A stretch of DNA of 64,000 nt from a bacterium (GTDB taxonomy: Bacteria > SZUA-79 > Acidulodesulfobacterales > Acidulodesulfobacteraceae): contig JAJZVN010000003.1 in NCBI GenBank assembly GCA_021845685.1, positions 62,001 through 126,000 on the forward strand, given 5' to 3'. Both the position numbers and the translations under genes were made by a program. The first letter of the stretch is position 1. Each line of letters opens with the position of its first letter. Positions 44,463-48,403 of the stretch are shown in pieces. The notes beneath the pieces were generated by a model. The model saw only the letters and a program-made list of their open reading frames with translations, was not told the DNA's origin and made no database searches.

Positions 44463-46985
44463 TTATTCAGATTTTGGCAATGTCCATGTTATATAATCGC
44501 ATTTTGGATAATTTGAACAACCGTAAAATTTTCTCCCCTTTTTTGTTTTTTTTATAACAAGATAGCCTCCGCATTCATTTGGACACGGTATATTAGATTT
44601 CAGAGGTATAGGTTTTGTATTTTTACATTCAGGATATCCGCTGCAGGCAAGAAATTTTCCAAATCTGCCTGATTTAAGCACCATAGGTTTCCCGCATTTA
44701 TCGCAAATTATTGCTGGTTCGCTGATTTGCTGAGCCGTATTTACCGCGTTTCCTGAATTATCCGTATTATTTTCGATATTATTTGAACCCTGCGCTTCAT
44801 TTTTATTGTTTTCATTATTTTCGGAAATTGAAGAAAGCTCTCTAGTATTTTTACATTCAGGATATCCGCTGCAGGCAAGAAATTTTCCGAATCTGCCGAA
44901 TTTTATCACCATAGGTTTCCCGCATTTATCGCAAGTTATATCGGTAGCGATAGACGTACCTTTTATATTTTTAATATCTTTTCCTGCACTTTCTAATCTA
45001 TCAACAAGCTTATCGTAAAATTCTCTAAGCAATGTATTTTTATTTAAAGTTCCTTTTTCTATTTCATCAAGTTTGTTTTCCATATTTGCCGTAAATTTAA
45101 TATCTAAAATATCGGGAAACCCTTCTTTTAAAATATCTGATACTACAATTCCAAGCTCCGTAGGCTTAAATCTGGCTATAGAGCTTGTTTCAGTTTCTGT
45201 TTCGACATAATCTTTATTTTTAATGTTTGATATAATTGTCTGATAAGTGGATGGTCTGCCGACGCCGTTTTCATCCAATGCTTTAACAAGAGTAGCTTCA
45301 GTGTATCTCGGCGGCGGCATAGTAAAATGCTGTATAAGATCTAAATCTTGAATAAAAGCAGGGTCATTTTCTTTTAAAATTTCAAATATTTTTAAAATAT
45401 ATTTGGAGTTTAATCCTTTATTTTTTTTATTATCTTCTTTATTTTTGCTTTCATTAACATTAACATTTTTTTCGCTATTGTCTGCATTTAAATTTAAATT
45501 GCTATTTATATCCTGCTCCGATTTCTCTTTTGGATGTTCATATAATTTATTAAGAGCTTTTAAATATCCTTCAAATTTAAGAATGCTTTCAGTAGTTTTA
45601 AATAAATACTCATTTTCTCCAATATTTTCTGTATGATTATCTGTGTCCGTTTTATTGCCCTTTTTATTTTTAATTTTTTTAATGTTATCGGTTTTGCCGG
45701 TGTTTTCAGCTATGTTATTTTTGGCTATTTCCCCATTGCCGCTTATTGTTATATTATACTGGTCAAAAATACTTTGAGACATTTGGGAAGCAACAAAAAA
45801 TGTCCATATTAAATTATAAAGTTTGTATTCATCCGTAGATAAATAATTTTTTATCTTTTCGGGGGTCAAAAAAACATTTGATGGTCTTATTGCTTCGTGG
45901 GCATCTTGAATTTTTTTTGGTTTTTGTTTTTTTGAAACAATTGCAGTGCCGCTTTTGGCAAAATCTTCCCCGAATTCTTTAGTAATAAAATCTTTTGCAG
46001 CTTTAGAGGCAACATCGGATATTCTTATGGAATCAGTTCTCATATAAGTTATAAGACCGGTAAGACCTAATGGACCGCTGCCTGCATTTTCTACCTTGCC
46101 TAAATCAATTCCTTCATAAAGTTTTTGGGCGACGCTCATTGTTTTTTTAACGGAGAATCTGATTGTTTTAAAAGCTTCTTGTTGTAATGTGCTTGTAATT
46201 AAAGGAGGCGGAGCATTTCTTTTAACGGATTTTTTGCCGATATTATAAATTTTATATTCTGCTATATTTAATAATGAAGTTTTAATGTTTTCAGCTTCGG
46301 AGGCATTTTTTATTTCAGGGTCTTTCCTGTTTATTTTTGCAAGTTCCGAAGTAATAGTAAATGAATCTCCCGAATTGTTTTTAATTAAAAAATTGGCCGA
46401 CAGCGTCCAGTATTCTTCTTTGACAAAATTATTGATTTCTTTTTCTCTTTCTACTATTAAATATAATGTAACAGATTGAACTCTTCCTGCGGAAAGCCCT
46501 CTCCCGACTTTTTTCCACAAAAAAGGACTTAAATTATAGCCGACTAATCTATCTAATATTCTCCTTGCTTTTTGAGATTCAAACATAAATTCATTAAGGT
46601 CTATCGGGTTTTTAATAGCTTCTTTAATAGCATCTTTTGTTATCTCGTTAAAAAGAACTCTTTTTACTTCGGGCCTTTTGCCTTTTATAGTATCTATAAT
46701 TTCTTTTACGTTCCATGCTATTGCTTCCCCTTCTCTATCAGGGTCAGCAGCCAGAAAAACGGTATCGGCGGTTTTAGCATATTTTTTTATTTCTTCGGCA
46801 ACTTTTTCTTTGCCTTTTATAATTTCGTAAAACGGTTCAAACCCATGTTCAATATCAACGCCTATTTTGCTTTTCGGCAAATCTTTTATATGTCCCATCG
46901 TAGCTTTTACCGCATAGTCTTTACCGAGATATTTATTTATCGTATTAGCTTTTGACGGAGATTCTACTATAACTAAATTTTTCAT
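44463..46985 (-). CDS. topA: DNA topoisomerase I
   Basis: TopA relaxes negative supercoils by single-strand passage (type IA). The 840-residue protein has the Toprim domain (L-V-I-V-E-S-P-S-K-A, F-L-A-A-D-P-D-R-E-G-E-A-I-A-W), catalytic Y314 (in I-T-Y-M-R-T-D-S), and three C-terminal zinc ribbons: two nearly identical ones (C-D-K-C ... C-S-G-Y-P-E-C) and a third variant (C-P-N-E-C ... C-S-N-Y-P-K-C). N/K/D/E-rich insertions are seen at about 425-460 and 490-525 and between the ribbons (about 720-756). The start overlaps the upstream gene by ATGA, so the two are coupled. Confidence 0.96.
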   Translation of the reverse strand: MKNLVIVESPSKANTINKYLGKDYAVKATMGHIKDLPKSKIGVDIEHGFEPFYEIIKGKEKVAEEIKKYAKTADTVFLAADPDREGEAIAWNVKEIIDTIKGKRPEVKRVLFNEITKDAIKEAIKNPIDLNEFMFESQKARRILDRLVGYNLSPFLWKKVGRGLSAGRVQSVTLYLIVEREKEINNFVKEEYWTLSANFLIKNNSGDSFTITSELAKINRKDPEIKNASEAENIKTSLLNIAEYKIYNIGKKSVKRNAPPPLITSTLQQEAFKTIRFSVKKTMSVAQKLYEGIDLGKVENAGSGPLGLTGLITYMRTDSIRISDVASKAAKDFITKEFGEDFAKSGTAIVSKKQKPKKIQDAHEAIRPSNVFLTPEKIKNYLSTDEYKLYNLIWTFFVASQMSQSIFDQYNITISGNGEIAKNNIAENTGKTDNIKKIKNKKGNKTDTDNHTENIGENEYLFKTTESILKFEGYLKALNKLYEHPKEKSEQDINSNLNLNADNSEKNVNVNESKNKEDNKKNKGLNSKYILKIFEILKENDPAFIQDLDLIQHFTMPPPRYTEATLVKALDENGVGRPSTYQTIISNIKNKDYVETETETSSIARFKPTELGIVVSDILKEGFPDILDIKFTANMENKLDEIEKGTLNKNTLLREFYDKLVDRLESAGKDIKNIKGTSIATDITCDKCGKPMVIKFGRFGKFLACSGYPECKNTRELSSISENNENNKNEAQGSNNIENNTDNSGNAVNTAQQISEPAIICDKCGKPMVLKSGRFGKFLACSGYPECKNTKPIPLKSNIPCPNECGGYLVIKKTKKGRKFYGCSNYPKCDYITWTLPKSE

Positions 46986-48403
46986 ATTTTTTTTATTACC
47001 CCTGAAATTTCCCTTTTTATTACCCCTTTAATTTCCATTAAAGAGATTGATTGAAGAATCATTTTTTTAATTTGATTTGTATCATTTTTATTTATTTTTT
47101 GAACAATTTTTATTAGATTATTAATTATATCGTCGGCAGTTATATTGATGTTGTTATTTTTTTTATAATTATAATCTAAAAAACTTAATATTGTTTTTTC
47201 AATATACTGTAATTTATTTATATTTTCATTTTTGTCTATTATATATATATCTGGATCATCTATAGTATTTATTATATCGTCATCTTTTATATTTATTATA
47301 TTTGTATTATTATTGTCATCGGCAATTTTATTTTTTTCAATAAACTTTTCTATGATATTAACATTTTTATTTAAATTTTCAAATTTTTTAATTAGATTAT
47401 TTAATGAACTTTTTTTTGACAAATATAGCACAATCATTTCCGATGAGATATTTAATATTAGATTGTTCCTGTAAATATAACAATATTTAAAATTTGTTTC
47501 AAAAGGATCTGTTGCCGAAATAGCCGAAAAATCTGAGTATTGGGAGTAATTTTTTAAAAAATGAATCATAGGATAATGAGGCGCTAATATAATTTTATTT
47601 TTATCTTTGAAAACTTTATCATAATTTTTTATCAAATTATTTTCTGATTCGCTTGCCGTCCCTATAAAATATGAAGTATTTATACTTTCGTCTAATTTAT
47701 TAAAGTTGCAGCTTACGTTGCTTAAGCTGTTCAAGTTGTTGCAGCTGATTAAATACTCGCTCAAGCAGTTACTTGAAGAGCAGTTACTTGAATAATCATT
47801 TAATCTGAATATGCCGGCGTCTTTATATCTTGAAGATGTAATAAATATAAATTTATTATTGTTATTTATATCGTTATTTGTTATATTGCTGCCGCAATTA
47901 TTATTTATGCCGTTTATATTATTTCCATCAAAATATTCATCATTTGGGTATATATTATTTATTTTTTTACTTATATGATTTATATTACAGGCTAAAGCAG
48001 CTGTTTTTTCTAAAGCCTCTTTTTTATTAATATTATAATAATAAAGAAAAATAGGCAGACTGTCATTATAAATATTCAAAAAGGGTATAATATTGAATTT
48101 GTCTAAAGCATTACTTTCGTTTTCCGCAATTTTTTTAGATTTGCCAAAAATATTTTTATCAATTTTATATGTTTCTAATGCCGTATTTTCCAAAATTTTC
48201 GCAATATCGCTATAATAATTGAAATTATTATAGCTATTATTATCAGTTATGTATAATTTAATAATTTTTTTAAATATTTTTTTCACAGCGCTTTGCTTTA
48301 TGCTTTTAAATTGCGAGAAAATCCTGTGATAAAAATACAGCAGTTTAATTAAATCATTATCTAAATAAATATTTTTGCCCATTTGAACTGTTTGATTTTT
48401 CAT
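46982..48403 (-). CDS. highly diverged, asparagine-rich DprA/Smf-like protein
   Basis: The 473-residue product is strongly N/I/K-rich. It has no clear family signature at first sight, but the order of remnants follows DprA: F-N-I-I-P-F-L-N-I-Y-N-D-S-L-P-I-F-L near 103-120 (DprA I-x-x-x-x-D-x-x-Y-P-x-x-L), I-F-I-T-S-S-R near 186-192 (for V-A-I-V-G-S-R), F-I-G-T-A-S-E-S-E near 246-254 (for S-G-x-A-x-G-I-D), I-S-A-T-D-P-F-E-T-N-F (about 295-305), Y-R-N-N-L-I near 311 (for R-N-R-I-I) and a final winged-helix-like I-S-L-M-E-I-K-G-V-I-K-R. DprA normally loads RecA on incoming ssDNA and usually lies next to topA. The catalytic-like glycines are lost, so function is uncertain; it may be degenerating. 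Confidence 0.6.
   Translation of the reverse strand: MKNQTVQMGKNIYLDNDLIKLLYFYHRIFSQFKSIKQSAVKKIFKKIIKLYITDNNSYNNFNYYSDIAKILENTALETYKIDKNIFGKSKKIAENESNALDKFNIIPFLNIYNDSLPIFLYYYNINKKEALEKTAALACNINHISKKINNIYPNDEYFDGNNINGINNNCGSNITNNDINNNNKFIFITSSRYKDAGIFRLNDYSSNCSSSNCLSEYLISCNNLNSLSNVSCNFNKLDESINTSYFIGTASESENNLIKNYDKVFKDKNKIILAPHYPMIHFLKNYSQYSDFSAISATDPFETNFKYCYIYRNNLILNISSEMIVLYLSKKSSLNNLIKKFENLNKNVNIIEKFIEKNKIADDNNNTNIINIKDDDIINTIDDPDIYIIDKNENINKLQYIEKTILSFLDYNYKKNNNINITADDIINNLIKIVQKINKNDTNQIKKMILQSISLMEIKGVIKREISGVIKKI

Follow-up and report, generated by a model that had tools for sequence, protein, structure and literature searches.

DprA occurs widely in bacteria, even where no competence is known, and what it does apart from transformation is still an open question (PMC12386762). 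This question is raised by a locus in the window (the whole stretch of 64,000 nucleotides analyzed here, from a member of the Acidulodesulfobacteraceae), where a reading frame of extreme composition lies directly upstream of topA: does this gene descend from dprA and, if so, what might it still do? The source genome is 96% complete, and the closest named relative is Candidatus Acididesulfobacter diazotrophicus AP1 (protein 92% identical), from the acid-mine order Candidatus Acidulodesulfobacterales (PMC6776010).

Descent of the topA-linked gene

The open reading frame (46982-48403, reverse strand) starts with ATG, is intact over 473 codons with no internal stop, and is flanked by topA and one divergently oriented gene. 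The topA gene (44463-46985, reverse strand) encodes a type I DNA topoisomerase of 840 amino acids with Asn-rich inserts of its own (TIGR01051, 706.9 bits, above the cut-off). The initial annotation described the two genes as fused in translation; the ATGA stop/start overlap it reported is indeed present (46982-46985, reverse strand), but it is an overlap of 4 bases and not a fusion. This arrangement, which probably reflects translational coupling, recurs as an ATGA-type overlap in 13 of the 19 relatives that hold both genes; at loci L076, L089 and L093 from other bacteria, canonical dprA and topA also overlap by 4 bases. The accompanying premise that most bacteria have dprA next to topA proved too strong: of 30 loci sampled from other bacterial families, 11 showed adjacency, scored within about 1.2-1.5 kb.

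Searches of Pfam, NCBIfam and PADLOC with the window protein alone gave no match; the DNA_processg_A model (PF02481) scored 11.4 bits against a gathering cut-off of 29.6, and hmmscan reported nothing. When a profile of the family was aligned by hhalign with a profile of 20 DprA proteins from other bacteria, the two matched over 275 colinear columns (E 1.7e-6), compared with a best E of 0.045 among 60 column-shuffles and 0.72 for the reversed profile. Most of this signal is supplied by the DprA-type winged helix (residues 401-473; 46985-47203, reverse strand), which by itself gives E 6e-7; the part before it yields E 0.026, and the conserved Rossmann core a weak E 0.006. The Rossmann similarity being this weak at the sequence level, homology rests on the winged helix, the position and the predicted fold. 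The Pfam model of the winged helix (DprA_WH, PF17782) matches 6 of 21 family members, exceeding the cut-off in G010 (31.9 against 22.9 bits), and is not detected in the window protein itself.

The family profile found no match among PDB sequences, so that DprA structures were reached by fold comparison alone. The AlphaFold2 (AF2) model of the window protein has a mean pLDDT of 68, with ordered parts mostly at 70-95 and inserts below 50. In a Foldseek search of the whole PDB, the DprA of R. palustris, ShosA, and the DprA proteins of S. pneumoniae and H. pylori lead, ranks 1-11 are all DprA or ShosA, and YpsA (2nx2) follows at rank 12. A second AF2 model, of a 358-amino-acid member from a sister genus, also retrieves DprA first, with a better E-value (8e-8) and the DprA/ShosA group at ranks 1-13. 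Overall TM-scores, normalized by target length, remain modest at 0.41-0.55, and superposition on the best full-length match leaves a large rmsd, in part because model confidence is low over more than a quarter of the window protein. An extended Rossmann fold of the DprA type is thus predicted in both models. YpsA and other SLOG proteins have the superfamily core in common with the window protein, but this match is weaker than those of the higher-ranked DprA structures, and YpsA is not known to have a winged helix. With position, winged helix and predicted fold in agreement with the profile match, the window gene is a descendant of DprA and not an unrelated Rossmann protein, and the view of it as a nearly unrecognizable homologue holds.

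Conserved core and drifting inserts

The protein begins with an N-terminal helical domain and the start of a pre-Rossmann element (residues 14-110; 48074-48364, reverse strand), modeled with pLDDT mostly about 85-95, in which AENExxxLxKxxI aligns by hhalign with AExELxxxxK of DprA. The order of DprA landmarks that had been read from the DNA, namely TSSR (189-192), GTASESE (248-254), YRNN (311-314) and a winged-helix end (401-473), is correct, and all four have conserved counterparts in relatives. The first Rossmann strand with TSSR (183-200) is followed by a low-confidence Asn/Ser-rich insert and the next strand (201-252; 47648-47857 for the whole segment, reverse strand); S190, S191 and R192 are present in 21/21 members, and the pLDDT of the insert falls below 50 at 197-212 and 220-240. 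Column counts place GTxSEAE (for GxAxGID), ISAxDPF, K306, R312-N313 and LYLSxxSSL in the Rossmann core (residues 241-352; 47348-47683, reverse strand), from which an Asn/Asp-rich linker (residues 353-400; 47204-47347, reverse strand), with pLDDT below 50 over 353-396, leads to the winged helix.

The DprA of H. pylori binds ssDNA through R52, K137 and R143 (PMC4489622), and that of S. pneumoniae through R115 and lysines including K202, the equivalent of H. pylori K137 (PMC4066776). All three H. pylori positions have basic counterparts here. R192, inside TSSR, corresponds to S. pneumoniae R115 and H. pylori R52 and is conserved in 21/21 members; R312, the first R of RNR, corresponds to H. pylori R143, with R312-N313 in 21/21. 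K306 would be the counterpart of K137 (K in 19/21, R once), an assignment made from its distance to RN and the least secure of the three, as this column varies in DprA at large. Across the family, 28 columns are invariant, ssDNA-contact residues included. The GxAxGID loop, in which S, G, A, G and D are found in 20/20 canonical DprA proteins, is absent and replaced by GTxSEAE; FP before RN, the third base of RNR and PG following the last core strand are lost as well, and the family-specific motifs GTxSEAE and ISAxDPF are invariant or nearly so. Regarding RecA binding and tail-to-tail dimerization, the EDE triad of pneumococcal DprA is poorly conserved even among DprA proteins (PMC4066776).

Compared with DprA/Smf proteins of known structure (R. 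palustris 3maj, S. pneumoniae 3uqz, H. pylori 4ljk/5mll), the window protein thus has in common the position by topA, the domain order (N-terminal helical domain, extended Rossmann fold, winged helix), the predicted fold, the basic residues equivalent to R52/K137/R143 and a serine-rich SxL turn after the RN helix. It differs in having TSSR for G[ST]R, in the motif losses listed above, in the sub-threshold DNA_processg_A score and in the Asn-rich inserts of its genus.

These low-confidence Asn-rich segments (residues 147-181, 197-240 and 353-396) are enlarged in the window genus. Asn, Ile and Lys make up 44.0% of the protein (N 16.9%); among the 42 window reading frames of at least 200 amino acids, the gene ranks first by this measure (median 28.9%; topA product 31%). 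Insertion of this kind is not restricted to the DprA-like gene: the TopA proteins of the genus have Asn-rich inserts around residues 425-535, and near their C-terminus another stretch rich in Asn separates two zinc-finger repeats.

By the Nei-Gojobori method, pairwise comparisons in the genus give a dN/dS of 0.24-0.47 for the topA-linked gene, 0.09-0.14 for topA and 0.05-0.12 for a second, ComF-linked DprA described below. Within the gene, the Rossmann core (dN/dS 0.22, 79% identity in the genus) and the winged helix (0.24, 76%) differ sharply from the linker (0.53, 47%); the values for residues 183-200 and 201-240 are unreliable, with few codons and saturated sites. The pattern is one of a constrained core between drifting inserts. 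The suggestion of relaxed selection therefore stands in part: dN/dS is roughly triple the topA value and the gene has decayed in one sister genus, but the core and winged helix are constrained (omega about 0.2) and the 28 columns do not vary.

Distribution, ComEC and a second DprA

With the family profile, we recovered the gene intact from 25 of 30 family genomes (separate assemblies, 5 of 6 genera), while 31 genomes from other bacterial families yielded no copy. Members of the same genus are 55-92% identical to the window protein, and identity across genera is about 30%. Wherever topA is available in full (18/18 relatives), the gene lies immediately upstream of it, as it does in one relative whose topA is partial. 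In G007, of genus g2, decayed remains (L159:5600-6731) with recognizable core and winged-helix pieces in different frames lie directly upstream of a retained topA; together with the 25 intact copies, this indicates that the gene is normally kept and can be lost. The complete frame, its retention in relatives and purifying selection agree with the earlier remark that the gene is not simply dead. Neither the DprA-like gene nor a bacterial topA was recovered from G015, G016, G020 and G022 (the sole match in G016 being a 33% partial one). As topA is missing along with its partner, the relevant contig is probably absent from these assemblies, and gene loss in the four genomes is unsupported. Three genomes (G023, G024 and G026) have two copies of the topA-linked gene each, on separate contigs, which probably reflects strain mixing in metagenome-assembled genomes (MAGs) rather than duplication.

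The channel domain of ComEC (PF03772) was detected in 0/30 family genomes, compared with 30/31 genomes from other families; the absence of ComEC is judged from two profiles (PF03772 and TIGR00361) applied to draft genomes and MAGs. Family matches to TIGR00361 lie far below the cut-off, and we rejected them as a hidden ComEC, most of them covering model positions 451-523 alone, inside the metallo-beta-lactamase part, in frames of 550-590 amino acids. With the ComEC domain absent, natural transformation by the usual route appears unlikely in this family, judging from these profile searches. ComM-type ATPases remain in most members.

A second, recognizable DprA (best E about 1e-50) is encoded in 29/30 family genomes, the source genome included, and adjoins a gene for a ComF-like phosphoribosyltransferase wherever the locus is long enough to see (L001:1300-2931 on contig C29 in the source genome; counterparts L044-L071). 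It has no winged helix, and RDR replaces RNR. The best PADLOC matches are ShosA for this protein and ShosT for its neighbor; its near-universal presence argues for a core gene over a patchy defense system. A second canonical dprA in the genome had been named as evidence against descent of the topA-linked gene from DprA. A recognizable second gene does exist, but it is the ComF-linked, ShosA-like form without a winged helix, and the homology is not overturned. We also considered and rejected this gene (L001) as the parent of the topA-linked one: it shows no resemblance to the family profile (E 0.17), has no winged helix, and sits in a conserved context of its own.

RqlI of E. coli belongs to the DprA-like antitoxins that pair with a phosphoribosyltransferase protein (PMC4670107). 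The topA-linked protein has the DprA-type Rossmann fold in common with ShosA and its relatives (8zva, 9vzo), its second best fold match; unlike ShosA/PsyrA-type antitoxin genes, its gene has no phosphoribosyltransferase neighbor, and PADLOC finds nothing for its product.

Possible functions

We consider it likely that the gene is the vertically inherited, topA-linked dprA of this lineage, rebuilt after loss of the ComEC DNA-uptake channel, and that its product is an accessory ssDNA-binding protein or RecA mediator in repair, made together with TopA. The protein would still bind ssDNA through R192, K306 and R312, as the conservation of these residues makes probable, and the winged helix may provide a second contact with DNA or with another copy of the protein. 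No longer handing incoming DNA to RecA, it would most likely act in repair or recombination, a role proposed because DNA uptake is apparently gone. The overlap would couple its production to that of TopA.

The strongest competing explanation is gradual decay of a redundant gene: DprA would have become unneeded once uptake was lost and a second DprA was present, and would be expressed only by way of the topA transcript and constrained mainly by solubility and coupling. A dN/dS about threefold that of topA, the Asn-rich inserts with their 44% Asn, Ile and Lys, the remains in genus g2, and the absence of ComEC alongside a recognizable second DprA in 29/30 genomes are all as this explanation would have it. 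We nevertheless regard it as rather unlikely, given that the gene is intact in 25 of the 26 genomes with the gene or its remains, across genera sharing only about 30% identity, and that 28 columns, ssDNA-contact residues included, are invariant and core omega is 0.22. Repurposing of the DprA scaffold as a SLOG/Rossmann protein for another ligand or partner, such as in nucleotide sensing or topoisomerase regulation, with GTxSEAE and ISAxDPF forming a new site, would account for the replacement of GxAxGID and FPxRNR by (near-)invariant family-specific motifs and fits the coupling to topA in most relatives. SLOG relatives do bind nucleotides, and the SLOG structure of ThsA turns up in the fold search, at a low rank. 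However, none of the known nucleotide-sensing SLOG proteins comes close to DprA in rank, and the ssDNA-binding positions and winged helix are retained, which makes this explanation improbable. The extreme composition and the inserts could even suggest a pseudogene or an assembly artefact without biological product, an explanation that is scarcely credible for a gene intact in 25 genomes from separate assemblies, under purifying selection and with a coherent predicted fold.

In a more tentative reading, these proteins might form a family-specific class of DprA derivatives in which the SLOG GxAxGID site was exchanged for a new conserved one (GTxSEAE/ISAxDPF) and whose work is unrelated to transformation; they might, for instance, join TopA on ssDNA that supercoiling or replication lays bare. 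We consider this possible but doubtful. The family amounts to a natural experiment. In a lineage without recognizable ComEC, DprA has been neither left unchanged nor, one genus excepted, lost; it has been rebuilt around the ssDNA-contact residues and the winged helix, which, being retained without ComEC, are candidates for an uptake-independent function. This lineage-wide variant, with its clear evolutionary setting of apparent ComEC loss and a second DprA, offers a test of DprA function independent of DNA uptake.

The ComF-linked DprA may fulfil some of the ancestral role, and this would account for both the drift of the topA-linked DprA and its loss in one genus. In most members, this ComF-linked protein ends in QPxLF(G/D), a C-terminus that we take to resemble a sliding-clamp-binding motif.
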